A stretch of 64,000 nucleotides of DNA from Nitrososphaerales archaeon (GTDB taxonomy: Archaea > Thermoproteota > Nitrososphaeria > Nitrososphaerales > CADDZS01). The stretch's first letter is position 1; each line of letters begins with the position of its first letter. The stretch lies in NCBI GenBank assembly GCA_030041295.1, contig JASHOD010000053.1, positions 1-64,000 on the forward strand. Direction: 5' to 3'. Position numbers and translations under genes: made by a program. The notes beneath the pieces are model-generated. The model did no database searches, was not told where the DNA came from, and worked only from the letters and a program-made list of their open reading frames with translations. This document shows, one piece after another, positions 8,943 through 64,000 of the stretch.

Positions 8943-9206
8943 TCATCCATCCAGGCAGGTCGTGTCGGTAGTTGTAGTTGAGGTACTTAGTGAAGTTTGT
9001 TGAGAGGTTGTGGTTGTGTTTTGCGTTACTGAACTCGGTGACGACGACGAAGTTGTCGAAGTTTGAACGGCGTTTGCGAAAATATTTGTCTGTTGGTTGT
9101 GGAAAAATGAGAATCCTACCACCAGACTGATCGCGAGAGCGGCGGCGAGTACTAGCACGGCTGTGGTCTTGTAAAAACCTAGCTTATGAGGTATCGTGAC
9201 TTTCAT
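8943..9206 (-). CDS. Small membrane-anchored Ser/Thr-rich protein
   Basis: An 87-residue protein with one hydrophobic helix (TTAVLVLAAALAISLVVGF, about residues 14-32) followed by a Gln/Asn stretch and then a tail of nearly pure Ser/Thr, ending TTCLDG. This anchor-plus-glycosylatable-linker layout is like the N-terminus of the solute-binding protein at 58.3-60.2 kb, so it is probably extracytoplasmic and O-glycosylated. No globular domain follows. It lies downstream of the ABC-2 exporter genes on the same strand with a 170-nt gap. Specific function unknown. Confidence 0.6.
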   Translation of the reverse strand: MKVTIPHKLGFYKTTAVLVLAAALAISLVVGFSFFHNQQTNIFANAVQTSTTSSSSPSSVTQNTTTTSQQTSLSTSTTTTDTTCLDG

Positions 9207-9376
9207 AGTTTGGAAACGCTCGAATCGTATATTTGGACCCCTAGCTTATCATCGCTTGCGGATAAAATGGGCGGCCACTTTAACCAGAGATCTGCTTCGA
9301 GCAATAGATTTGGATAAAGCGTACTACTATCTTAGCTAGGGGCTCCGTACTTCCTCGGTTGAGCTAAAAGAGCATC

Positions 9377-10300
9377 CTAGTACTCTTCTAACCTGCCGCT
9401 TCTTCTGGCCAGGCGTTCAAACCCCTTCAGGAGCAGGTATCCAACGAACAAGACAGCGACGCCGTCTATGAACTCTTGGAGGAATATCGGACCGAGACTC
9501 ATTACTGAATAACCCGAGATCGCGTCCCGAGCCGCTTGCACTCCATAAGTCATGGGTATTGCCCATGAGACCGGCTGTAGCCAAAGCGGGAGATCCTGAA
9601 CAGGAAAGTTGACCCCGCTCACGAGCATTGTGAGAAAGAGGAAGATATTCGCGACTATCATGGCGGTTCGCATGAATAGCCCAATGCTGCTGATCAACAG
9701 TCCGAAGCTGATCATCATGACGCTCGTCAGAACGATCGTAATTCCCAGGCCCACAAAATCCGCGTGACCGAAACTGATCCCGAACACATAGTGCGCGTAG
9801 ATGAAAGCTGCCACAGTGATAATCGCCGACATGAAAATTTGAAACGAGGCCCTCCCAATGAACAATGCCATCCGATTCGCGGGCGTGACAATCAGATTTT
9901 GCAATGTGCCCTGCCACTTGTCTTGCGATGTAATGTTAGCTACGGCGAATACGGCGGCGAACGACATCGACTGCACTGCATTCCCGATTACGGTATATTG
10001 AGCGTATTGCAGAGCAGTTGGACCGCCATGATACACCGCTATCGCGAGCAGGAAGAAAAAAGCCATCTCCGCCGGTGGAGTGATGAAAATTTGCATAATC
10101 CACATCTCCCACGAATCCCAAAGGATTGTTCCCTTCCTTCCAAAAAGAACTGAACCTAAGAAGACTCGATAAAACATCGACAGCTTCTGCCTCAAGGTTT
10201 CGTTGTCGTCAGAAACAGCACGAGTTCCCCGATCTCCCCCAAGAGGAGATTTTAGTCCTTGCTCTCGCTCTTTCTTTTCTTGCTCGGATTCTAAAGTCAA
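9377..10300 (-). CDS. ABC-2 type transporter permease (second permease)
   Basis: A 307-residue permease with about six hydrophobic helices after a charged, cytoplasmic N-terminus of about 40 residues (MTLESEQEKKEREQG). The segment DKWQGTLQNLIVTPANR is the typical ABC-2 intracellular coupling-helix region, and VSGVNFPVQDLPLWLQPVSW is the usual extracytoplasmic loop before the last helices. Both this and the preceding permease end in IEEY or LEEY, showing they are paralogues. It is the third gene of ATPase-permease-permease, 24 nt after its partner. Substrate unknown; relatives export drugs, lipids or polysaccharide. Confidence 0.88.
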   Translation of the reverse strand: MTLESEQEKKEREQGLKSPLGGDRGTRAVSDDNETLRQKLSMFYRVFLGSVLFGRKGTILWDSWEMWIMQIFITPPAEMAFFFLLAIAVYHGGPTALQYAQYTVIGNAVQSMSFAAVFAVANITSQDKWQGTLQNLIVTPANRMALFIGRASFQIFMSAIITVAAFIYAHYVFGISFGHADFVGLGITIVLTSVMMISFGLLISSIGLFMRTAMIVANIFLFLTMLVSGVNFPVQDLPLWLQPVSWAIPMTYGVQAARDAISGYSVMSLGPIFLQEFIDGVAVLFVGYLLLKGFERLARRSGRLEEY

Positions 10301-52290: not shown

Positions 52291-53229
52291 TTGCCGGAGA
52301 ATATTATAACTGGAAAGGCCGAGAGGTTCATCGTCATCGGCTATCTAACCGCGTTCACGGTAGGCATTCTAAACGGGCTAATACCAACTGTATCAAAGCC
52401 TCTGTTAAATTCCGTTAATCCTTTGTTCTTCACTGCAATAGTTACACTCACACCCGCGCTATTGTTCACTCCTGTTTCACTTAGGGCGAAGGAGAACACG
52501 AAGATCAAGAGAAGAGGCTACCTAGTCCTCTTAGCTTCTGCCGTGATTGGCAATCTGATCGGACCGTACGTGTATTTCGTCGGAGTGAAAGAGACTACAG
52601 CCTCGAATGCCGTTCTTCTCGCAAATGGAGAAATGGTCTTCACAGTTCTCATAGCATCGATGTTCTTTGGCGAGCGTCTTTCGAGAAAGGGAGTACTCGC
52701 TCTGGGGATTTTGGGCGTCGGTCTGATTACGGTGGTAACTGATCTCCAATTCTCAATTACAGCTGCGAATTTTGCGCAACCCGGAAATCTACTGATAATA
52801 CTTGCGACATTGTTTTGGGGCATCGATAACAATGTCACTAGTGCAATAACCCAGAAGCTAAATGTAGCAAGAATAATTCAGTTCAAAGCATTAATTTCTG
52901 GTGCTTCTCTACTCTTGATCGGTTATTTTGTTCACGCCATATCGATCAATGGCACAGACCAGCTGATCGAGATAATTCTCTTTGGCCTCCTGATATTTAG
53001 CGGGACTGTGTTTTTGAGCGTCGAGACACTGAGAAGGCTCGGCGCGATTACCACGACAATAGTTTTCCCGATTAGTTCTGTCTTCGGACTGATATTTGCG
53101 TTCATCTTGCTTAACGAGAACATAAGTTTGATCCAAATTGCGTCCGTTATCTTGATCTTTTTCGGGATCTATTTGATAACGAGAAAGGGAAGTGTAACGA
53201 GACTGGGGATAAACTTAGAGCAGATCTAG
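52291..53229 (+). CDS. EamA/DMT-superfamily transporter
   Basis: A 312-residue membrane protein with about ten helices in two EamA repeats. ANGEMVFTVLIASMFFGERLSRKG is the end of the first repeat and LLNENISLIQIASVILIFFGIYL ends the second. DMT members export or import metabolites, amino acids or sugars. TTG start. It completes the plus-strand trio and overlaps the last 4 nt of the convergent ABC ATPase gene. Confidence 0.88.
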   Translation: MPENIITGKAERFIVIGYLTAFTVGILNGLIPTVSKPLLNSVNPLFFTAIVTLTPALLFTPVSLRAKENTKIKRRGYLVLLASAVIGNLIGPYVYFVGVKETTASNAVLLANGEMVFTVLIASMFFGERLSRKGVLALGILGVGLITVVTDLQFSITAANFAQPGNLLIILATLFWGIDNNVTSAITQKLNVARIIQFKALISGASLLLIGYFVHAISINGTDQLIEIILFGLLIFSGTVFLSVETLRRLGAITTTIVFPISSVFGLIFAFILLNENISLIQIASVILIFFGIYLITRKGSVTRLGINLEQI

Positions 53230-54269
53230 GCCGTTTTTTCGACAAAGTGACAGGACGCGAACTGTCCTGATTGTACCTCACGGAGTTCGGGTGCCGTCTC
53301 CGAGCATACGGACTGAGCGTAAGGACATCTCGGATTGAATTTACAGCCACTAGGAGGATTTATCGCCGAAGGCACCTCACCCTTGATCTCAGTATTCAGC
53401 AAGTTCCTCTTCCATGGATTTGGGATTGGGGCAGAAGCAATTAGACTGATCGTGTACGGATGACGCGGTTTCGAAATGACCAATTCTGAGGGACCGTATT
53501 CCACGACATTCCCAGCATACATTACAACGAGGTAATCAGACATGTACTCTGCAACCGAGATGTTGTGCGTGATTAGGATGTAGGTCAGGTTGTAATTTTT
53601 TTGGAGATCCAAGAGAAGGTTCAAGATTTGCGCCTGAACAGAAGCATCGAGGGCGCTAGTTGGCTCGTCAAGAATCACAAGCTTTGGTTGGGTCGAGATT
53701 GCTCTCGCGATTGCAACTCGCTGTTTCTGACCCCCACTTAGATGACCTGGCAAACGATCTGCATGCTCTGGGGACAAACCTACAGCCTTGATGCTTCTCA
53801 TCACCATGCTATCAATGTCCTCCTTGCTTAGGTGTAGCAATCCGCGGCAGGGCTCCGCAACGATATCCCGGACTCTGAGGCGGGGATCAAGCGACGAATC
53901 AGGATCCTGGAAAACCATTTGCATTCCACGGTACAGGAAGCTCGGATTTATTCGGGGGTTTATTGTCTTTCCATCGAATGTAATGTGTCCAGAGGTGAGC
54001 GGAGTTAACATTGTGATCGCCCTAGCAAGAGTTGTCTTGCCACAACCAGATTCTCCGAGTATCGCCATTGTCTTTCCTCTAGGTACTGTAAGAGAAACAT
54101 CATCTACTGCGCGAACGAATTGTGCTTTCTCTCTACTTAGCGGATTGAATCCCCTCCTTATCGGATAATATTTCTTTAATTGAGTCGCGACAAGAATGTT
54201 GTCAACACCGATGCTGGTGCTGCCGACGCCTCTGTTGTTGTCGCTACTTTCAATAGATTCATTGGGCAT
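53226..54269 (-). CDS. Opp/Dpp-type ABC transporter ATPase (OppF/DppF)
   Basis: A 347-residue ATPase: Walker A GESGCGKTTLARAI, Q-loop MVFQDPDSSLDPRLRV, signature LSGGQKQRVAIARAI, Walker B LVILDEPTSALDAS, and the C-terminal oligopeptide-type extension with Cys-rich GCKFNPRCPYAQSVC. Last gene of the transporter set, overlapping its partner ATPase by 11 nt. Confidence 0.95.
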   Translation of the reverse strand: MPNESIESSDNNRGVGSTSIGVDNILVATQLKKYYPIRRGFNPLSREKAQFVRAVDDVSLTVPRGKTMAILGESGCGKTTLARAITMLTPLTSGHITFDGKTINPRINPSFLYRGMQMVFQDPDSSLDPRLRVRDIVAEPCRGLLHLSKEDIDSMVMRSIKAVGLSPEHADRLPGHLSGGQKQRVAIARAISTQPKLVILDEPTSALDASVQAQILNLLLDLQKNYNLTYILITHNISVAEYMSDYLVVMYAGNVVEYGPSELVISKPRHPYTISLIASAPIPNPWKRNLLNTEIKGEVPSAINPPSGCKFNPRCPYAQSVCSETAPELREVQSGQFASCHFVEKTA

Positions 54270-55476
54270 AGAGATAGCAGGCCACCCTATGATTTGGTTT
54301 TATTTCTACTAGCTTCGGTTTGTTTTCCTGACACACCGGCATTGCGCTTGGGCACCGTGAAGCGTACTTACAACCCTTTGGCAGATTTGCAAGGTCAGGA
54401 ACAGTTCCCGGTATAGGTTTGAGTCTAGCCTTATCCTTCGAACCCGAGGGAATACATGACAAAAGTCCCTTACTGTACGGATGGAGGGGTTGCTCAAACA
54501 GACTATAAACATCAGAATCTTCGACGATGTCTCCAGCGTACATCACCACAACTCTATCTGCAACCTGACTTGCTACGGATAGGTCGTGCGTAATGAGTAA
54601 AATGCTCGTGTTAACTTCATTCATGAGCTCCTTCATGAGCTTCAGTACCTGTGCTTGGGTGGTTACATCAAGAGCCGTAGTAGGCTCGTCTGCGATAAGT
54701 AAAGCGGGTTTTTGCGATAGAGCCATCGCAATCATCACTCTCTGTCTCATTCCACCTGAGAGCTCGAATGGATACCTTTCAATGACTTGCTCGGGATCTG
54801 CGATTCGAACTTGTCTTAGAGCATCCAGAACTTCATTTTTGAGAAGCTTTGTTAAACCACCCCTTCGGAATAACGGAGGAAGTCTAGATGGCAAATCCCG
54901 AGAGTCCCTTTTGTAGACCTTTTGCATCACGTCGCTTTCAAGATCAGCCTGGGGATTCCCCTTCCTCTCTTCACGCACTGCAATAGCTTCGGCTATCTGG
55001 TCTCCCACCTTGTATACAGGATTCAAGCTTGTTAATGGTTCTTGAAAAATCATTGCTATTTCTGTTCCTCTAAACTGTCTTCTCTCATTTGATTTTAGAG
55101 CAGTGAGGTTTATTGATTTGTACATTATTTGTCCGCTTAACATTCTTGCAGGAGGGCTAGCTAACAGACCAATGATCGAAAGTGCTAGGGTTGATTTTCC
55201 GCAACCAGACTCTCCGACGACCGCAACAAAGCTGTTTCTGCCTATCTCAAGGTTGATATTTTCCAGTGCGAGCAATGCGGAGTTCTTCTGTTTGTATTCG
55301 ATGGAAAAGTCCAAGATTGAGAGAAGCTGTCCTTTTCGGGTCGAGTCAGTATTTTCATTTTCTTTTCTCGTTACAAGTTGCTCCGTCTCGGGGAGGGTCT
55401 GCGTCAATGGTTTGTTTTCATCAACTTGTGAGAGTATCCTTAAGGCCGTCTCCGAGTAGACTGAATCCAATGACAC
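54259..55476 (-). CDS. Opp/Dpp-type ABC transporter ATPase (OppD/DppD)
   Basis: A 405-residue ATPase: Walker A GESGCGKSTLALSI, Q-loop IFQEPLTSLNPVYKVG, signature ELSGGMRQRVMIAMAL, Walker B LLIADEPTTALDVT, and a Cys-bearing tail (CKYASRCPSAMPVC). An insertion of about 40 residues lies between the Q-loop and signature (KRDSRDLPSRLPPLFRRGG). The longest frame overlaps the upstream permease by 56 nt; a TTG at 55407 would give a start just past that gene's stop. Confidence 0.94.
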   Translation of the reverse strand: MSLDSVYSETALRILSQVDENKPLTQTLPETEQLVTRKENENTDSTRKGQLLSILDFSIEYKQKNSALLALENINLEIGRNSFVAVVGESGCGKSTLALSIIGLLASPPARMLSGQIMYKSINLTALKSNERRQFRGTEIAMIFQEPLTSLNPVYKVGDQIAEAIAVREERKGNPQADLESDVMQKVYKRDSRDLPSRLPPLFRRGGLTKLLKNEVLDALRQVRIADPEQVIERYPFELSGGMRQRVMIAMALSQKPALLIADEPTTALDVTTQAQVLKLMKELMNEVNTSILLITHDLSVASQVADRVVVMYAGDIVEDSDVYSLFEQPLHPYSKGLLSCIPSGSKDKARLKPIPGTVPDLANLPKGCKYASRCPSAMPVCQENKPKLVEIKPNHRVACYLYAQ

Positions 55477-56338
55477 TTAGTGCAATCACTAGTCCAGGAA
55501 AGAAGGGGAGCCAAGGATCTGAGATGATATAATCCTTAGTCGAGCTTACCATTTCGCCCCAATCTGGATGCGGGGGGAGCACGCCCAACCCGAGAAATGT
55601 AAGACCGGCGTAAACCAAGATGACCGTCCCGACATCCAACGAAGCATAGATCAATAATGTCAAAGAAATATTTGGGAGAGCATGTCCAAAAATTATCTTG
55701 GTCGTTCCCCTTCCAGAGAGTCTTGCTGCCTCTATGTAATTTTGGTGCGCAATTTTCAAAGCTTCACCTCTAGCTAGCCTAGCGTACGGAGGCCACCAGA
55801 TGACCATTAGAGCAATTGTCATGTTCACAATACCAGGGCCTAACGCGAGAGCAATAGCCATCGCAAGAACAAGTGCTGGGATGGCAAAGAAAATATCTGT
55901 CACCCTCATCAAGGCTTCATCCCATAGTCCACCATGGAATGCCGCATAGCTCCCTACTATCGCACCTACAACGAGAGAAAATGCGATCACAGTCAGACTG
56001 ACGGCAAAATCATTTGGCGTAGCGGTTAATATTCGACTGAATGTATCTCGACCGAGTTGATCAGTTCCCATCAAGTGAGATAACGAAGGAGGCGATAAAG
56101 GCGGCCCCGCGCTGAGCTCTAGAGGATTGTACGGGGTTACGGGCAATTTCAGGAGCTGGCCGACATACTCAACTATTGCCGTTACAGCAAAGATTCCGAC
56201 GATTATAGCTCCAATCAATGCTCCTTTATTGGATCTGATAGAACCGAGGATCGCCCGGAATCGTACGCTAGCACTGGGGTTTGAGGGAAGAATTTCCTCT
56301 CTGTCCTCCGCCTCGTCGCTTCTTTCAGCAGTCAGCAA
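55421..56338 (-). CDS. Opp/Dpp-type ABC transporter permease (DppC)
   Basis: A 305-residue permease. After a charged N-terminus and first helix (IGAIIVGIFAVTAIV) comes HLMGTDQLGRDTFSRIL, the DppC signature, and the EAA loop YIEAARLSGRGTTKIIFGHALPN-type segment (near residue 205). Six helices in total. Partner of the DppB-like protein encoded 33 nt upstream. Confidence 0.94.
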   Translation of the reverse strand: MLTAERSDEAEDREEILPSNPSASVRFRAILGSIRSNKGALIGAIIVGIFAVTAIVEYVGQLLKLPVTPYNPLELSAGPPLSPPSLSHLMGTDQLGRDTFSRILTATPNDFAVSLTVIAFSLVVGAIVGSYAAFHGGLWDEALMRVTDIFFAIPALVLAMAIALALGPGIVNMTIALMVIWWPPYARLARGEALKIAHQNYIEAARLSGRGTTKIIFGHALPNISLTLLIYASLDVGTVILVYAGLTFLGLGVLPPHPDWGEMVSSTKDYIISDPWLPFFPGLVIALSVIGFSLLGDGLKDTLTS

Positions 56339-56371
56339 ATCTTTGATTTATTCTCCTATTGATCCTTTTTC

Positions 56372-57406
56372 CTATCCAAGCCGAATCTGCGGATCTACCA
56401 CCACATAGAGTATATCGGCGACTAGATTTGCGAGGATGATAATAATTGCAAAGACGAGCGTTGTCGCTAGAATACCAGGATAGTCTTGGACGATGAGAGC
56501 TTGAAAGACATACTGACCCATACCAGGGTACGAAAAGATGTTTTCAACGAATATCGTTCCAGTTATTAGCCAAGTCACGATTAATGAGGATAGCGTGACG
56601 ACAGAGATCATCGCATTTCTGAGACCATGTTTGAAGAATACCGTGTTCTCCTTCAGACCCTTGGCCCTAGCCGTCCTAATGTAGTTAGAGCGCATTACAT
56701 CTAACATTGAACTACGAAGAATCCTGACTACTACTCCAAAAGTTCCTAGCGCGAGGGACACACTTGGAAGTATTACGTGTTGAAGTGAACTGAAGAAGTA
56801 TGGATAGTTCCCTTCAAGTAGAGAATCCAACATGGGAATATGCGTGACAGGTTTTGGCGTAGCTAACGTGATAGCTGCCGCCCCACCGCTAGGGAGAAGT
56901 GCAGGACGAAAGATAAGCGGAGAACAAAAAACGATGATCAAAACTAGAGCAATAAAGAACGAAGGTGAAGAAATTCCAGCGAGATAAAATCCTCTTATGC
57001 TTTTATCCACCGGTCCATGGTGAAACCTAGAGGCAATCACCCCAAGGGATATTCCCAGAATGAGGCTGATCAAAATTGCGAAGAAAGCGATTTGAAAAGT
57101 ATAGGGAAAAGTTTGAGCTATAACGTCGCTTACGGGTTCGAACTCCTTTGCGGGCGATAGTCCAAGATTTCCGTGCAAAAGACCATCGAGGTAGTAGTAA
57201 TATTGAACATAGAGGGGTGAATCGAGATGATATTCCTTTGTATAAATTTGGACAAGTTGAGGATGAGCGGAAGCGTCTCTTCCGAGCCATGCATACACCG
57301 GATTTCCTCCGATACTATGAGCCAAAATGAATGTTATTGTTACGACGCCTAGAAGTACTAGTATTGCTAGAAGGAGCCGACGAACTATGAACCCGACAAT
57401 GTTCAA
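56372..57406 (-). CDS. Opp/Dpp-type ABC transporter permease (DppB)
   Basis: A 344-residue permease with six helices. Opening VGFIVRRLLLAILVLLGVVTITF is the usual first helix; LDGLLHGNLGLSPA and the EAA loop YIRTARAKGLKENTVFFKHG follow; EFVENIFSYPGMG-type segment near residue 290. First gene after the sugar-isomerase-like gene, 99 nt downstream of it. Confidence 0.94.
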   Translation of the reverse strand: MNIVGFIVRRLLLAILVLLGVVTITFILAHSIGGNPVYAWLGRDASAHPQLVQIYTKEYHLDSPLYVQYYYYLDGLLHGNLGLSPAKEFEPVSDVIAQTFPYTFQIAFFAILISLILGISLGVIASRFHHGPVDKSIRGFYLAGISSPSFFIALVLIIVFCSPLIFRPALLPSGGAAAITLATPKPVTHIPMLDSLLEGNYPYFFSSLQHVILPSVSLALGTFGVVVRILRSSMLDVMRSNYIRTARAKGLKENTVFFKHGLRNAMISVVTLSSLIVTWLITGTIFVENIFSYPGMGQYVFQALIVQDYPGILATTLVFAIIIILANLVADILYVVVDPQIRLG

Positions 57407-57505
57407 ATCGTTGCGTGCAACCGCGTTCTGTACTTATATCTGATTTATGACGACAAGAAATGGATGAATATTCTTTTTTGCCTTTTTACAAAGCGTTTGT
57501 CGTTA

Positions 57506-58243
57506 TTAGAGTAACCCTTTGAGGTATTCGTAACCCTCCGCCACAACATCACGAGGATTCTGTCCTTCGTTTGCCTCGATCTCAAGCATTAGCTCTCCTC
57601 TGTAACCGACAGCCTTGAGTTTGTCTATCGCGGCCGAAATGTTCACGATGCCGTGACCGACGTTAACGAAATCACGCCTGAATTTAATTTCATTCATTGG
57701 TACTTTGGCTTTGAGATCCTTGAGGTGAATCAGAGTAAGACGATCGGCATATTCTTCAATCGTCTTCGTTATGTTAACGCCAGCTGCTGTGCCATGCGCA
57801 GTATCAAGACAGAGTGTAAGGCCCTCAATAGATTTCATTGCTCGGCGGATTTCAGAACTTGTCTGAAAAGCTGAACGAACCTCATTATGGAGAGATGCCA
57901 CAATCCCATTTTCTCGGGCTGTCTCTGCAAATCTTCTTAGCTTTTGGACTGCTTGCTTTCTGTCGTGTGAATATATCGAAACCCAGATGAGCGGAGTTTT
58001 CGAATCTTTTGCCCAATTGATTCTTGCTAGTGCTCCTGGTGAAAAAGTACCGCCATTTTCAAGCCCCGATTTCCTGACTAATGGGGCTACTAGTTCTGGC
58101 TTTTCCTTGAGCGCATTAGGTAGATACCCATACTCCAAGCCTACTCCTTCAAATCCAATCTCCCGTAGTGTAGAAAGCACGTTGGAAAGGTCCCGTGGAG
58201 TTTTGATTTTCCTCCACGGAAACGTTGTCACTGAGAGTTTCAT
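57506..58243 (-). CDS. Sugar phosphate isomerase/epimerase-like TIM barrel
   Basis: A 245-residue AP-endonuclease-2-fold protein (xylose isomerase-like). Metal-site candidates: ASLHNEVRSAF (Glu), LCLDTAHGTAAG (Asp and His), LIHLKDLKAK (His, Asp) and LMLEIEANEG (Glu). It belongs to the IolE/IolI/hydroxypyruvate-isomerase-like group, but the substrate cannot be read. It sits between the solute-binding protein and permease genes of the transporter, so it likely acts on the imported compound. Confidence 0.85.
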   Translation of the reverse strand: MKLSVTTFPWRKIKTPRDLSNVLSTLREIGFEGVGLEYGYLPNALKEKPELVAPLVRKSGLENGGTFSPGALARINWAKDSKTPLIWVSIYSHDRKQAVQKLRRFAETARENGIVASLHNEVRSAFQTSSEIRRAMKSIEGLTLCLDTAHGTAAGVNITKTIEEYADRLTLIHLKDLKAKVPMNEIKFRRDFVNVGHGIVNISAAIDKLKAVGYRGELMLEIEANEGQNPRDVVAEGYEYLKGLL

Positions 58244-58266
58244 GTATTACTTCGTTTCGATAAAGC

Positions 58267-60243
58267 TCAGCTATTCGATACAAAAGTGATTGTATTGAAT
58301 ATGGCTGTGGATGACTGCCCAGTATAGACCGGGTCGAGAAGCATACTCTTGACCACGTTCTTGTTCCACACGATTGACCCAGCGCCAAAAACCAGTTTCA
58401 GAGTACCAAGTGGAATGTATGGCGCATCATTGTAGAATTGTGCCTGCGCTGCAGTGCAGTCCGAAACCAGTGTGGCATTGCTTGCGCCATTCGTCCAATC
58501 ATCTACACATTTTTGGACGGTGGGGTTAGAGTAAATTGCCCAGTTATTTGATGAAGTTGCATTGTTAGCGAATAGTAACCAAGCGTCTGCGGGATCCGGA
58601 GCCGCAGGCGCGAAAGTTCCAGTACCGAACCAAGCTAATTGCGCGACTGTTTGCGAATCATTCAGAGCTTGGGAGTAGGAACAAGTTCCAGCCGTGTATG
58701 GGCATTGGTATTGACTAGGTTCGGTCACTTCAATCTGAACGTTAAATCCGAGGTTTGAGAGGTCGGCCTGTACGATTTCTGCGGTTTCCTCACAATAGCT
58801 GCAGCCGGCGACAACTCTAAATTCCATCTGAGGGAGGTTCGCGGGATTTATGCCAGCATTTGATAGAATCTGTTGGGCCAAAGTGACATTGTACTGGTAA
58901 GGCGGCAGATTTCCGAGATCGTAATACGCGGACTGCGCAGGATACTCGGGAAATACCAGAGGATTCAATCCTCCGAAGAAGACTGTCTGTGAGATGTAAG
59001 TATAATTTATGGCGTGTACAATCGCTTGCCGTACCGCCGTTATATTCGTCGGATAGCGTTGCGTGTTCATAGCCAATCCCACGAATAACATTGACTTGGC
59101 GGGCATTGTAAAGTACGAGTAAGTATTCAGATTGTTTTGAATTAAAGGCCAATCTTCACTCAGGATAGCGGCGACTTGGGCAGCACCAGAACTTAGGTCC
59201 GAGTAGCGGGTTACATCATCTTGTACCCACTTTACAATCACATTCTTGGCATGCCCTGGATCTAGGTAAGGATTCGCTTGGATCTGAGCAGCAGTCAGAT
59301 TTGCGCCCCAATAGGTTGGATTCTGAGTAAACTGAACATTCGAATCTTCTGTTACACTTGTTACCACATAGGGTCCAGTCCCTGGAATTGGGTTGTCATT
59401 GAAGTAAGTATTGAATTGCGCAGGAGTACCGAATCCACCATGATTCAAAAGCCATTGTGTGTCAAAAATTAAACCGGTATAAACTGGAAAGAGGTAGGGG
59501 AAGAATTGGAATGGATGCGCGAGTTGGAATACTATGGTTTCAGGCCCAGTAACATAGATCGGCCAAGACGAATTCTCCATGATTGAAAGTAGTTGTGAAG
59601 ATGGATTAATGAGTTCTGAGGAACTTGCATTCATTAGGGCGAGCGTGGCGGGTCCAAAATTCGCAGTGTTCATGTTAAACACATTATATGAAAGCATCCA
59701 AGACGAGCTGTTTCCGGACAGATAGTAGAAGCCGTACATTTCTCCCCAGACTTGGTAAGCGTTTAGTGGATCTCCATCAGAGAAATTCACATTTGGTCGA
59801 AGGGAGAAAGTGTAGTTCAACCCATTGGATGACACAGTCCACGAACTAGCTAACATTGGTTCAAGCTGGACAGTGCCCGAATCATACAGGGCAGAACCAT
59901 TCAGGGTAACAAGAGATTGATAGACCGTGTAAGTGAGCCAATTAGGGTATGGAATCTCGCCTAGAGCATTTAATTGATTCAAGTCTCCGGCCGGCCAAAA
60001 TGCATCATCAATTGTAAGAGTCTGCATGAAACCAGACCCAGTACCTGTGCTCGTTGAAGTGCTAGTACTTACAGTAGCTGAACTAGAGGATGAAGTACTC
60101 GTAGTTGTCGAGGATGATTTTGACGTGAGAAGAGCGTAAGAGCCCGCAACTGCGGCGATAACAATTATTACGACGACAATGGCTATCGTCGCTATTCGAG
60201 AAATTCCGGCAGCTTTCTTCCTACCCAGCACGTTACTATTCAA
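58267..60243 (-). CDS. ABC transporter substrate-binding protein, family 5
   Basis: A 658-residue extracytoplasmic binding protein. Residues about 16-42 are a membrane anchor (IATIAIVVVIIVIAAVAGSY), followed by a Ser/Thr-rich linker to about 70, the archaeal arrangement for glycosylated surface binding proteins. The mature part shows family-5 features: LEPMLASSWTVSSNGLNYTFSLRPNVNFSDG is the start of the core (about residue 130), and IPGTGPYVVTSV later. Many NxS/T sites. Family 5 proteins bind peptides, but in archaea and Thermotoga many bind oligosaccharides, which fits the neighbours. Confidence 0.94.
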   Translation of the reverse strand: MNSNVLGRKKAAGISRIATIAIVVVIIVIAAVAGSYALLTSKSSSTTTSTSSSSSATVSTSTSTSTGTGSGFMQTLTIDDAFWPAGDLNQLNALGEIPYPNWLTYTVYQSLVTLNGSALYDSGTVQLEPMLASSWTVSSNGLNYTFSLRPNVNFSDGDPLNAYQVWGEMYGFYYLSGNSSSWMLSYNVFNMNTANFGPATLALMNASSSELINPSSQLLSIMENSSWPIYVTGPETIVFQLAHPFQFFPYLFPVYTGLIFDTQWLLNHGGFGTPAQFNTYFNDNPIPGTGPYVVTSVTEDSNVQFTQNPTYWGANLTAAQIQANPYLDPGHAKNVIVKWVQDDVTRYSDLSSGAAQVAAILSEDWPLIQNNLNTYSYFTMPAKSMLFVGLAMNTQRYPTNITAVRQAIVHAINYTYISQTVFFGGLNPLVFPEYPAQSAYYDLGNLPPYQYNVTLAQQILSNAGINPANLPQMEFRVVAGCSYCEETAEIVQADLSNLGFNVQIEVTEPSQYQCPYTAGTCSYSQALNDSQTVAQLAWFGTGTFAPAAPDPADAWLLFANNATSSNNWAIYSNPTVQKCVDDWTNGASNATLVSDCTAAQAQFYNDAPYIPLGTLKLVFGAGSIVWNKNVVKSMLLDPVYTGQSSTAIFNTITFVSNS

Positions 60244-60320
60244 TTTAAGATTAGCTCAAGATCAGCCCGCTAGCGTTGTCATTTATAGTGTTTAGGGAAG
60301 CGGGGGCAGCAATCACAATC

Positions 60321-61355
60321 TCAGTGAGTCATAATGACAGGTGCCTTTCTTTTCATAGACTCATCAGCCGCAAATCCAATCTCAATCGCAGCTTTTCCAT
60401 CTCTTGCCGAGACTCTGGGCGGTCGGTTCTCAAGGATGCAGGTGGCAAAATCCTCGACCTCGTCGTGATATGCCTGCCCGAATCTCTCCACGTAGGAGGA
60501 AGAATACTGACCATGGTGGCCTGATTCATCGAGAATCGTGGCGGAGTTTTTCTCCCCTATTCCCACAAAGGCGGCTCCCTTCGTCCCCAGGATCTCCGCT
60601 TGCACGTCGTAACCATAGACAGCATATGCTGAGGAATCCACATGAGCCATTGCCCCTCCTTCGAGGGTTAATGTTACTACGACATGATCGGGGATCCCGG
60701 AAGGATCCAGTTCCTTGTGATAAACCAGAATTTCACCGTCCGCATAGACCTTCGTAACCTCCGATTTAGATAGCCACCTTATGACATCAAAATCGTGGCT
60801 ACACGTATCGGCCATGATTCCTCCGCTTTTTGCAAAGTCGAGATAATAATTCGGGGATAGGCCCGGGGGGTCACGTGTGTGTGAAGACATCAAGAGAACT
60901 CTTCCTATTCTCCCTTCGTTTATTGCGTCTTCTACGCGTCGAAAGGCATTGTCAAAGCGCCTTTGGTAACCAACTTGAATTTTCACTCCGGCTCGATCGG
61001 TTTCGTAAATTATCTCGTCGGCGTCTTTCGAGGATAGAGTCATTGGTTTCTCGACAAAGACGTGCTTCCCAGCCTTTGCTGCTTGCACGATCATGTCCTT
61101 TTTCAGATACGGAGGAACCGCTATGAGAATCGCCTCAACATTCTTGTCGTCGATAAGGGAGCCAAAATCTGAATACACTGTTTCTACCCCTAGGCTGGAT
61201 GCTAGTTTCTTAGCGGGTTCGACAAGCATATCCGCTATAGCCACAAGATTTGCCCTTGGGATCTTGAGGGCGAGATTTTCTGCATGCACACGGCCCATAG
61301 CACCTACTCCTACAACACCAAATCCAACTCTTCTTTTCGCTTCAGACATTTTCAA
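60321..61355 (-). CDS. Gfo/Idh/MocA-family oxidoreductase
   Basis: A 344-residue NAD(P)-dependent sugar or cyclitol dehydrogenase. The Rossmann motif is FGVVGVGAMGRVHAENLA; VEKPMTLSSKDADEII contains the catalytic Lys of EKP; SGGIMADTCSHDFDVIRWL holds the His of the active site. Inositol 2-dehydrogenase (IolG) is one member; the family is broad. Promoter region has a perfect 26-bp palindrome (61415-61440) and a TATA-like TTAAAA about 33 bp before the ATG. Confidence 0.92.
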   Translation of the reverse strand: MKMSEAKRRVGFGVVGVGAMGRVHAENLALKIPRANLVAIADMLVEPAKKLASSLGVETVYSDFGSLIDDKNVEAILIAVPPYLKKDMIVQAAKAGKHVFVEKPMTLSSKDADEIIYETDRAGVKIQVGYQRRFDNAFRRVEDAINEGRIGRVLLMSSHTRDPPGLSPNYYLDFAKSGGIMADTCSHDFDVIRWLSKSEVTKVYADGEILVYHKELDPSGIPDHVVVTLTLEGGAMAHVDSSAYAVYGYDVQAEILGTKGAAFVGIGEKNSATILDESGHHGQYSSSYVERFGQAYHDEVEDFATCILENRPPRVSARDGKAAIEIGFAADESMKRKAPVIMTH

Positions 61356-61414
61356 AATCTAAGGGCCGTCTCTTTCTCTAGTAGTTTTAAGACTTCTAAG
61401 TGGAGCGGATTCCT

Positions 61415-61440
61415 TGTAGTCTTCCCGGGAAGACTACAAA
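61415..61440. promoter_or_regulatory. Perfect 26-bp palindrome upstream of the dehydrogenase gene
   Basis: TTGTAGTCTTCCC (61415-61427) is followed directly by its exact reverse complement (61428-61440), with no spacer. It lies between the ParB-NTF2 gene (ends 61445) and the dehydrogenase start (61355), about 25 bp upstream of the TATA-like element near 61388. This position suits a transcription-factor operator controlling the dehydrogenase and transporter. It could also fold as RNA, but no U-tract follows on the minus strand. Confidence 0.65.
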
Positions 61441-61444
61441 TTGT

Positions 61445-62596
61445 TCAGTTTTCGTGAGCGATTCGAGAGTCCGTTTCGGTACTCTCAAGAATGTCCGTAT
61501 GGTTGCCGCTCAATCGCGACCAGTGCTCATGGCGTATCTTCCATTTGCCGCCCTTACGAACCAAGATTATAGTTCCACCGGCGCGCATTTTTATCTGCCT
61601 ATCGTAGAACGAACCGGAATAGCTTAGCGTTAACGTTGCAAAGGCGACATCGTTAAGGATCTCCGCATCAAAATCGCCTATCTTGTAAGCTAACCTTGGA
61701 GCGAGCTCATAAGACCAATTCTTGACACGCGACAGTGCATAATTCTTTTCGATTTTTTCAAAGGGCGGAAACGCACTGAACAGGCTAAAGGAATCGTCAA
61801 AGATTTGCATGTCTTCAACGGACTGGAAATCGCCGCTGTGGATGAGACGTAACTTGTTCACGATCAGACTGAAAATTTGTTTTCGTTGCTCCCCTTCGTA
61901 GGAGAATGATGAAGATAGTTCAGGAGCACTTGCGATCGATTCATCATCGGGAATACGCTGTATGTCATTTGATTTGAACCAGCTGCGTAAGCGTCCCACG
62001 ATTGCTGAGAGTTCCCTTACCGAGATATTCTCCTTGACTATCCTTTCGAGAAGATCAAACCGAACGGAGGGATCTTTTACTCTTGCGAGTATTCTAGCGT
62101 GATGCTCAGAGACTTTGTGAAGGAAATCAATGGCATCAGTCTTTGAGGCAAGGAAATCAGGATCAAACAAATTAAGCATCGCAATGTAATTCCCTACGTG
62201 TTGCTTTGATCGTCCCAGAAGTGCACCTATCTGTTCGTAGGTCAGATGAAAATCCCTGTTCAGTCTTTTCAAAGTGAACGCTTTTTCATAATCAGAGAGC
62301 TCCTCTCTGTCCAAGTTTTCTATCAAAGACTCGAAAATCATCTGAGAGTCGTCTGCTCCGACAACACTCGCCCGAATTGATTTCCAACCGAGGTTCTTTG
62401 CTGCCAAAAATCTCCGATGGCCATACACGAGCTCGTATTTCCCCTCGTGCTTTGGAGAAGGGCGGACCTTTACCGGAACTAGCTGACCATGTTTGCTCAA
62501 GGAAAGATTGAGTCGTCTGATGTTTGAGTCTGAATAATGCAATCTAGAATTGTAAGGGTTCCATTCGATCGAATCTAGGGGAATCTCTGCTTCCAA
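61445..62596 (-). CDS. ParB-like DNA-binding protein fused to an NTF2/SnoaL-like domain
   Basis: A 383-residue protein with two parts. Residues about 1-200 are ParB/Spo0J-like: SIEWNPYNSR, HGQLVPVKVRP, the nucleotide-site motif YGHRRFLAA (GERR in typical ParB, so Glu is replaced by His60), IENLDREELSDYEKA (the ENLxR motif, Glu93, Asn94, Arg97, intact), and a helix-turn-helix LTYEQIGALLGRSKQHVGNYI. Residues about 235-362 look like a SnoaL/NTF2 fold (FATLTLSYSG, then TIILVRKGGKWKIRHEHWS). No ParA is nearby. It lies inside a catabolic operon next to a palindrome, so it is more likely a gene regulator than a partition protein; the NTF2-like pocket could bind the pathway's ligand. Confidence 0.85.
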   Translation of the reverse strand: MEAEIPLDSIEWNPYNSRLHYSDSNIRRLNLSLSKHGQLVPVKVRPSPKHEGKYELVYGHRRFLAAKNLGWKSIRASVVGADDSQMIFESLIENLDREELSDYEKAFTLKRLNRDFHLTYEQIGALLGRSKQHVGNYIAMLNLFDPDFLASKTDAIDFLHKVSEHHARILARVKDPSVRFDLLERIVKENISVRELSAIVGRLRSWFKSNDIQRIPDDESIASAPELSSSFSYEGEQRKQIFSLIVNKLRLIHSGDFQSVEDMQIFDDSFSLFSAFPPFEKIEKNYALSRVKNWSYELAPRLAYKIGDFDAEILNDVAFATLTLSYSGSFYDRQIKMRAGGTIILVRKGGKWKIRHEHWSRLSGNHTDILESTETDSRIAHEN

Positions 62597-62686
62597 AAAC
62601 TGCGCTCTGGCAGAGTCACATATTCTGAATCTAATAAGTATTCGAGCGAGAAAATAAAGGAGTCAGTTTGAATATAGCTGAAATCA

Positions 62687-63820
62687 TCAATGATATCGAT
62701 ACTTTTTGAAGAAATCGATGTGCGTTTCTCTTTGAGGATGCCTCTTTATCTCAGAGTAATCTAATTCGACACCTAAGCCCGGGCGCTCGGATAATCTGAT
62801 CTGTCCATTAGAAACATGTTCTCCGCCTTTGACTAGTTTGGACCTCCACGGCACATCGACCCAGTATTCCAAAATCAAGCCATTTGGCATCGAGGTCAAC
62901 AGGTGAGCCGAGGCAGCAGTTGACACCGGTCCGTTGGAATTGTGAGGAGCAACAAGAATGTTCTTGTTTTCGGCCAAAGCAGCGATTTTACGTAATTCGG
63001 AGATTCCACCGACGTGGCATACATCAGGCTGTATGACGTCAATTCCAGTGCTTGAAGAAAGGAGATTCCAATAGTCGGATCTTGTGAAAAGGCGCTCGCC
63101 CGTCGCGATAGGGATGTCTACACTTCTTGCAACTCTTGCCAATCCCTCCATGTCCTCTGGAGGCACGGGCTCCTCGAGCCACATAGGATCGAAGCGTTCT
63201 AACTTTTTACCTAATCTGATTGCAGTTCGCGCAGAGAATCTCCCATGCGCTTCGATGATGAGATCGACGTTCACTCCAACTTCTTCTCTTACTTCACTCA
63301 CGATCATGATCGCTTTTTCTTCGTCTACTCGATCAATTGTCAGGTCGGCTGTTCCGAAAGGATCAAACTTTAGTGCATTGAATCCCTTTTGGACCATCCT
63401 ACTTGCAGCTTTAGCATACTCCTTAGGTGTCCCATTTCCTGAGAACCATCCATTAGCATACAATCTCACTTGGTCGCGATATTTTCCACCTATAATTTTG
63501 TACAACGGGAGATTGGAGGCTTTTCCTACGATATCCCAGAGTGCTTGATCTATTGCACTGATTGCGGTTGTGAAGACTGCTCCTCCTCTCCAAAATGGTC
63601 CCCTGTGCATGCCCCTCCAAATTTTTTCAATGTTAAATGGATCCTGACCTAGAAAATATTTCCGAAGATCCTGAATCGCCCCTACGACACCGTACTGATT
63701 ATTCGCTAGTGTCGCTTCGCCGTTTCCCACTAAACCTTCATTATCTGTTTTGAGCTCGACAAAGATGTAGTTTCTCCAGTTGGCTTCCATTGTGTAGATC
63801 TTTAGGTCGACTATTTTCAT
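62687..63820 (-). CDS. Enolase-superfamily (MR/MLE) sugar acid dehydratase
   Basis: A 377-residue enolase-superfamily protein like galactonate/gluconate-type dehydratases. N-terminal cap IVDLKIYTMEANWRNYIFVEL. Barrel motifs: FNALKFDPFG (Lys and Asp at the second strand), DLIIEAHGRFSART (metal Glu and His), MWLEEPVPPEDM (metal Glu), IATGERLFTR (metal Glu), and VAPHNSNGPVST (catalytic His). Expected to dehydrate a sugar acid to a 2-keto-3-deoxy acid. First gene of the minus-strand island. A CACGTG at 63852-63857 lies in its promoter region. Confidence 0.9.
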   Translation of the reverse strand: MKIVDLKIYTMEANWRNYIFVELKTDNEGLVGNGEATLANNQYGVVGAIQDLRKYFLGQDPFNIEKIWRGMHRGPFWRGGAVFTTAISAIDQALWDIVGKASNLPLYKIIGGKYRDQVRLYANGWFSGNGTPKEYAKAASRMVQKGFNALKFDPFGTADLTIDRVDEEKAIMIVSEVREEVGVNVDLIIEAHGRFSARTAIRLGKKLERFDPMWLEEPVPPEDMEGLARVARSVDIPIATGERLFTRSDYWNLLSSSTGIDVIQPDVCHVGGISELRKIAALAENKNILVAPHNSNGPVSTAASAHLLTSMPNGLILEYWVDVPWRSKLVKGGEHVSNGQIRLSERPGLGVELDYSEIKRHPQRETHIDFFKKYRYH

Positions 63821-64000
63821 TTCGAAGAAGCTCCTGATTTATCGAGATTATCACGTGCTTTTATGTTTCAAAAACTCTCTTCACATGATGCAGGAGGCTC
63901 TCATTCAAAGAAGTTAAATTACTTGTATGGTTGGATCGATTTTCTGGTTAGAGAAATTTGAAACCAGATAGCTGGAAGATATGCCCCGATGATCGACCAT
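63821..64000. other. Right edge: promoter region and possible partial ORF
   Basis: 63821-63913 is the upstream region of the dehydratase gene. From 64000 to a TAA at 63916-63914 a minus frame is open (28 codons, starting with an ATG at the very edge), which could be the end of another gene; nothing in it is recognisable. Confidence 0.2.

Follow-up and report, generated by a model that had tools for sequence, protein, structure and literature searches.

The known role of ParB-type CTP clamps is in segregation, and a few from bacterial plasmids or phages act as transcription regulators, which raises the question of what a ParB-like protein is doing among the catabolic genes of an archaeon. We addressed this question for a gene in a 64,000-nucleotide stretch of DNA from a Nitrososphaerales archaeon (referred to as the window here). 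The gene occupies positions 61445 to 62596 of the minus strand, is intact, encodes 383 amino acids, and has full-length homologues; its TTG start is backed by an orthologue that starts with ATG (L054; METEIPLESIEW versus LEAEIPLDSIEW). Its product combines a ParB_N domain with an NTP-binding fold (residues 4 to 95, 62312 to 62587; PF02195, E value of 6.5e-17), a ParB helix-turn-helix (HTH) domain (residues 98 to 203, 61988 to 62305; PF17762, HTH_ParB, 1.4e-15), and a SnoaL_3/NTF2-like domain (residues 249 to 360, 61517 to 61852; 4.9e-8, 33.8 bits versus a cut-off of 22 bits), all on the minus strand. The three domains exceed the curated Pfam cut-offs, which bears out the fusion of a ParB and an NTF2 domain claimed in an earlier interpretation of the bare letters (the sequence-only reading). 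The protein also passes the NCBIfam cut-off of TIGR00180 (120.3 versus 58.45 bits), and the NCBIfam model with the lowest E value is that of Noc (TIGR04285), with 123.5 bits, far under its cut-off of 315. The closest solved structures are those of Noc (7ol9, 2.7e-27), Caulobacter ParB, and Spo0J, all of which span residues 4 to ∼200. The canonical ParB C-terminal dimerization domain (PF23552) was absent in Pfam at an E value of ≤1, and SnoaL_3 is found instead.

The fusion gene shares its strand with a set of enzyme and transport genes. Upstream of it lies an enolase-superfamily sugar-acid dehydratase of the galactonate dehydratase type (62687 to 63820), which exceeds its NCBIfam cut-off, and the first gene downstream, beyond a palindrome described below, encodes a Gfo/Idh/MocA oxidoreductase (60321 to 61355) whose inositol 2-dehydrogenase-like match scores just below the NCBIfam cut-off. 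Further along come, by profile, an extracellular solute-binding protein (SBP_bac_5; 58267 to 60243) and an AP_endonuc_2 TIM barrel that is weakly IolE-like (57506 to 58243), then two ABC permeases (55421 to 57406; the one at 56372 to 57406 is BPD_transp_1 by profile, and the one at 55421 to 56338 was assigned by sequence and orthologue order) and two ABC ATPases of the oligopeptide type (53226 to 55476; oligo_HPY at 53226 to 54269 by profile, 54259 to 55476 by sequence). From its gene content, this looks like an operon that takes up and oxidizes a sugar, a sugar acid, or a cyclitol, with a dipeptide/oligopeptide-type ABC importer. Relatives of the fusion gene have different neighbors, and every neighbor to which a name could be put belongs to catabolism or transport, given a data set drawn mostly from fragmented metagenome-assembled genomes (MAGs), with the window's genome itself rated 6.9% contaminated. 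Among them are SBP_bac_5 and other solute-binding proteins, ABC ATPases, an amino-acid permease, a class-III aminotransferase, UbiD, creatininase, S-Me-THD (DUF917), luciferase-like monooxygenases, old-yellow-enzyme-type oxidoreductases, and aldehyde, alcohol, short-chain, and 2-hydroxyacid dehydrogenases. An anti-phage role for the fusion was rejected, with no PADLOC match.

The family to which the gene belongs comprises ∼26 genes in two clades and is restricted to a lineage of heterotrophic Thaumarchaeota. Full-length fusions occur in the window's own family (f1; G002, G003, G005, G006, G007, and G008, plus a partial copy in G004) and in a second family of the order (f12; G019, G032, and G041), often with several copies per genome, and no other match emerged at E ≤ 1e-30 when 398 genomes of the phylum were scanned. 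In public records, the fusion is carried by MAGs classed as thaumarchaeotal or archaeal, part of which derive from soils and acid waters; the carrier SubAcS9-71 is described as a heterotrophic terrestrial thaumarchaeon (PMC10640624), and the carrier Maxine3 stems from acid mine drainage (PMC10190701). In a tree built on ParB_N and HTH, the fusions stand apart both from bacterial ParBs and from the other, shorter ParBs that these archaea carry (support of 98/94), and they divide into clade A (12 rows, window included; 94/96) and clade B (13 rows; 87/91). The window's genome (G000) holds ten ParB_N genes, seven of which lie outside its three fusion loci, on contigs C19, C122, C21, C148, C118, C125, and C27 (L077 to L083); those on C19, C122, C21, C148, and C118 fall in a separate archaeal clade of shorter ParBs, and the short ParB gene on C118 has GCGTCCACGTGGACGC ∼370 bp downstream. 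At the base of the fusion family stands a ParB-HTH protein with a C terminus unlike that of the fusions (L068; G041:C3, 2940 to 4064), and a site TGACACCC-AGGTGTCA is located 24 bp upstream of its gene (here and below, a hyphen marks the center of symmetry).

Comparison of inverted repeats and of family members points to a 26-bp perfect palindrome without spacer, TTGTAGTCTTCCC-GGGAAGACTACAA, at 61414 to 61439 as the candidate operator; the sequence-only reading had noticed this palindrome but placed it one position off, at 61415 to 61440. It encloses a 16-bp core common to the family (GTCTTCCCGGGAAGAC, 61419 to 61434), and there is no other such inverted repeat in positions 57000 to 64000. The exact site is present once in the 3.68-Mb genome, as is its 14-bp core. 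A regulon with multiple copies of this exact operator is unsupported, because a genome-wide search with up to 2 mismatches gave no second copy above the reversed-pattern control. The palindrome directly follows a stop codon and ends 58 bp ahead of the next downstream gene. Given this spacing and a TATA-like TTAAAA, picked by eye as a candidate promoter element in between (61385 to 61390, minus strand), the site sits just upstream of a probable promoter, a position that would suit an upstream activator or the loading of a clamp beside the promoter.

We then scanned the loci of the relatives for perfect palindromes with a minimum length of 16 bp, a threshold fixed before looking. Nine of the 10 such palindromes in 280 kb fall within 250 bp of a fusion gene, a zone that makes up 12.5 kb of the total (Fisher p = 7e-12). 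The site consensus is GTMTGCCC-GGGCAKAC in clade A and KTTCACCC-GGGTGAAM in clade B. Within clade A, the site reads GTCTTCCC-GGGAAGAC in the window, GTCTGCCC-GGGCAGAC (twice) in G006, GTATGCCC-GGGCATAC in G002 and L092, GTCTGCCC-GGGCATAC in G005, CTATGCCC-GGGCATAG in G007, GTATGCGC-GCGCATAC at another locus of the window's genome (G000:C1), GTATGCTA-TAGCATAC in G003, and GTACGCCC-GGGCGTAC in L090; L090 and L092 carry the clade A motif even though neither was used in its derivation. The pattern GTMTKCCCGGGMAKAC has 5 exact copies in nine family genomes, and every copy adjoins a fusion gene (a pseudogene in one case); its reversed control, with one mismatch allowed, was found twice in one genome and not at all in the other eight. 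On the flanks of clade B genes, ACCCGGGTGA is the most shared 10-mer (4 loci, k-mer count), a relaxed search placed sites resembling the clade B consensus at most of the genes, and TTCACCNNGGTGAA has 11 copies in 12 genomes, of which 7 adjoin fusion genes (7 genes), against 1 for the control. A further copy stands 5.7 kb from a fusion gene (G008:C59:783), and two strays, one inside a gene (L173) and one at the start of an open reading frame by a transposase-like frame (L172), are probably due to chance. A copy reading TTCACCGTGGTGAA (L174; G008:C39, 2405 to 2418) is far from any fusion gene and occupies the promoter shared by two divergent genes, one acyl-CoA-ligase-like and one solute-binding-protein-like; it may be a remote operator. 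No site was found at one clade A member (L057), which lies on a short contig, and no clear site at four clade B members (L065, L066, L075, and L076). A clade-A-type site, GTATGCCCGGGCGTAC, is located 150 bp from a contig end (L166; G008:C13:7281-7296), and the neighbor beyond that end, outside the contig, may carry a fusion gene.

A perfect palindrome can form a hairpin, so these sites could instead be terminators, REP-like repeats, or targets of another protein, associated with the fusion gene only indirectly. The window site, directly after a stop codon, and the sites of L070 and L074, which sit between convergent genes, would suit such an origin. However, the sites in L055, L058, L059, L061, and L062 lie between divergent genes, where no transcript ends, and on this ground we reject a terminator or REP origin; the explanation as a whole is most improbable. 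Elsewhere, the sites mostly precede a gene for catabolism or transport by 40 to 180 bp. Two clade A sites are 1.7 to 2.1 kb away from the ParB gene, which, like the convergent sites and the members without a clear site, counts against a dedicated operator. Repeats of the REP kind would be expected in multiple copies, which were not seen, and the type of site follows the clade of the HTH. A second copy of the locus in G006 (L071; C42) adds to this picture, as it holds a decayed fusion gene with 17 stops (9047 to 10132, minus strand), flanked by a dehydratase that shares 77% identity with the one in the window and by an IolG/TIM-barrel pair. Its operator, GTCTGCCCGGGCAGAC (9018 to 9033), has nevertheless stayed intact and matches exactly the operator beside the live copy on contig C37 of the same genome, which fits a site still used in trans and speaks against a mere repeat.

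The two site types share an inner CC-GG and an invariant C, which parS and NBS have at the equivalent position as well, and their outer arms differ and change symmetrically, with 38 two-sided changes, a count that is inflated because the sites were picked as near-palindromic; the colocation tests are free of this flaw. The reader of the site is the HTH (GRSKQHVGNYIAMLNLF, 62165 to 62215, minus strand), whose specificity residues K131, N136, Y137, and N142 in the window protein correspond to Caulobacter positions 173, 178, 179, and 184. Clade A proteins mostly have S(K/R)QH..N(Y/L/I) with H at Caulobacter position 201, and those of clade B mostly have SxxYVSQH with R/K, such that the site arms track both the clade and the HTH (mostly N/Y/H versus Q/H/R-K at positions 178/179/201). 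Positions 173, 178, 179, 184, and 201 are DNA-contacting or permissive in ParB and Noc (PMC7383237), so the site and its reader covary. Colocation and covariation thus support the proposal that the palindrome is a binding site, here as a family-wide 16-bp operator, and the fusion protein very probably binds the copy in the window.

Binding of a dedicated site is also what a protein for segregation or for the nucleoid would do, serving either the archaeal chromosome or an integrated element, with the palindrome as its parS or NBS. The nearest solved relatives are Noc and ParB, and the sites have an NBS-like CCCGGG core, the same 16-bp length, and one copy per locus. The genomic setting speaks otherwise. 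As the sequence-only reading had noted, no parA is near: the AAA_31 proteins of the genome are confined to contigs C152 and C94, with none on C116, which carries the fusion gene, and once homologues and their neighbors were tabulated, the former turned out to lie in catabolic neighborhoods and not beside parA. The N terminus (MEAEIPLDS) lacks a ParA-binding motif of the LG[KR]GL type, and its sequence has no membrane helix, with ParB_N starting at residue 4. Several paralogues per genome serve separate catabolic loci with their own sites, mostly in promoter regions. Because there is no ParA and one paralogue per operon, we reject a role in segregation as very unlikely. The catabolic and transport neighbors, together with sites near the promoters of these operons, are instead consistent with the proposed regulator of uptake and oxidation genes.

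Whether such a regulator works as a clamp depends on its nucleotide-binding residues. According to the family alignment, the window protein has a P-motif, GHRR, at residues 59 to 62 (62411 to 62422, minus strand), aligned with Caulobacter G101-E102-R103-R104, and a Box III, ENLDR, at residues 93 to 97 (62306 to 62320, minus strand), aligned with E135-N136...R139, the nucleotide motif that the sequence-only reading gave as ENLDRE. Equivalents of S74, G79, G101, R103, R104, E135, and N136 are kept in all 20 family members aligned and R139 is kept in 18, and the Box I arginine R60 is retained in 12, including the window protein. Loss of S74, G79, R103, R104, N136, or R139 stops CTP binding in Caulobacter ParB, and E102A gives a locked clamp (PMC8367383). 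The position of E102 is H in 12 members, N in 7, and Q in 1. The motif was thus read correctly, yet the change of hydrolysis deduced from it carries little weight, given that H, N, or Q is found family-wide and that KorB, whose GARR has alanine in place of the hydrolysis glutamate, still hydrolyzes CTP (PMC11790492); GHRR therefore does not settle the question of hydrolysis. From the conserved residues, we consider it likely that the fusion protein is an NTP (CTP) clamp.

The same data could describe a conventional ligand-responsive repressor or activator of the LacI or TetR kind, whose HTH sits on the palindrome and whose NTF2 pocket takes the substrate, with no sliding clamp and with a ParB_N that is structural or binds another nucleotide. 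A single site per locus near the promoter, diverse catabolic neighbors, and the invariant W/H/H of the NTF2 domain (see below) would all agree with this. Moreover, according to the 2025 survey of ParB-CTPase folds (PMC12704722), some such folds bind ATP or GTP and the nucleotide is not predictable from sequence, and there is a known ParB-like clamp that works independently of CTP (PMC12260392). A purely structural domain, however, has no need of CTP-binding residues, and both P-motif and Box III are conserved (R139 in 18/20). We thus regard a conventional regulator as unlikely, if clearly less so than a terminator or a segregation protein, and favor an orphan DNA clamp of the ParB/Noc/KorB type, acting as a local, operon-specific transcription regulator in archaea, to which we assign a probability of roughly 0.6.

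The remaining part of this proposed clamp is its C terminus. We aligned 22 domains, of which one comes from the window protein, 19 from fusions in other genomes, and two from archaeal proteins that stand alone; all 22 match SnoaL_3. A profile of this alignment retrieved from the PDB the NTF2-like structure 3f7s (2.7e-11) and the CaMKII hub, and AlphaFold2, run with the same alignment, gave an alpha-alpha-alpha-beta(4) cone with a core pLDDT of >90, for which the top Foldseek matches are CaMKII hub domains (E value of 1.6e-7, TM score of ∼0.8 by target length). A C-terminal fold other than NTF2 would have counted against the fusion as first proposed, and profile, model, and structure search all agree on NTF2. 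The family motif WKIRHEHWS spans residues 352 to 360, with W352, H356, and H358 invariant. The stand-alone proteins (L141 and L157, one from a Bathyarchaeota MAG) are ∼28% identical to the fused domain and are a possible source of the fusion. The fold is thus common to SnoaL_3/NTF2-like proteins, the CaMKII association hub, and the fusion C termini, and only in the last is it joined to a DNA clamp; we know of no enzymatic role for the fused domain. The ligand pocket proposed earlier is one of two ways to read the model, whose nearest folds are an oligomerization hub. A ParB clamp requires a permanent dimer base, for which the NTF2 hub is a natural candidate, and we lean slightly toward its having replaced the ParB dimerization domain as a dimer or oligomer hub. 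That it senses a ligand as an added role is possible but rather less probable.

Put together, the HTH would recognize a 16-bp palindrome of its own within the adjoining operon's promoter region. By analogy with ParB, Noc, VirB, and KorB, contact with the site would allow the N domains to take up CTP, shut around the DNA, and move along it into the neighboring promoter, with the NTF2/SnoaL_3 domain most likely serving as a permanent dimer or oligomer hub whose pocket possibly senses the substrate of the operon. In the window, the protein would thereby control the downstream inositol/sugar-acid uptake and oxidation operon, by either activation or repression. A bolder version, in which several paralogous CTP-gated clamps per genome, with their own operators, are metabolic switches whose NTF2 hub senses the substrate, so that the ligand controls closure or opening of the clamp over the promoter, appears doubtful to us. 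If the proposal is true, an archaeal chromosomal family with one operator for each catabolic operon would show the clamp converted wholesale to substrate-specific gene control. The natural protein-site pairs, with two clades and two types of arms around one core, would lend themselves to the study of how ParB HTH specificity evolves, and the operator sequences make binding, loading, and CTP dependence testable with short oligonucleotides.

Noc recognizes the site NBS, TATTTCCCGGGAAATA. Noc, the nucleoid occlusion protein of Bacillus with an NBS of 16 bp (PMC8429893), is the best match of the window protein among solved structures and NCBIfam models, and the fusion is similarly an orphan ParB_N-HTH protein with a 16-bp palindrome around CCCGGG. 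It differs in lacking a membrane helix, in its specificity residues (K/Y/N/H versus Q/K/K/R in Noc), in the outer arms of its sites, in an NTF2 C terminus instead of the ParB dimerization domain, and in having one site at a catabolic operon. KorB of plasmid RK2, a CTPase clamp acting as a repressor (PMC11790492), shares with the predicted clamp of the fusion the control of transcription from a palindromic operator and a P-motif without the usual glutamate; KorB, however, is a plasmid protein with a KorA partner, whereas the fusion is chromosomal, archaeal, and equipped with NTF2, and the KorB domain is matched in one family member only. VirB of Shigella, a CTP-dependent activator of the ParB type (PMC10770331), likewise uses a ParB fold for transcription regulation and a parS-like palindrome in target promoter regions, as the association of sequences suggests for the fusion, but it is an antisilencer of H-NS on a bacterial virulence plasmid, without the NTF2 domain and the one site per catabolic operon. 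In the ParB-CTPase-fold survey, orphan folds fused to lineage-specific domains are described, with CBS, ASCH, and MT-A70 among the archaeal ones, a pattern that the window family follows; SnoaL/NTF2 is unmentioned in the main text of this survey (PMC12704722), and a full-text literature search for ParB with SnoaL gave nothing relevant. Given that Noc, KorB, and VirB show each element of the mechanism in bacteria and that a ParB-SnoaL protein was not found reported, what is new here is the NTF2 C terminus together with the operon-specific operators, suggesting that archaea of soils and mine waters have turned a partition machinery into a set of local gene switches.
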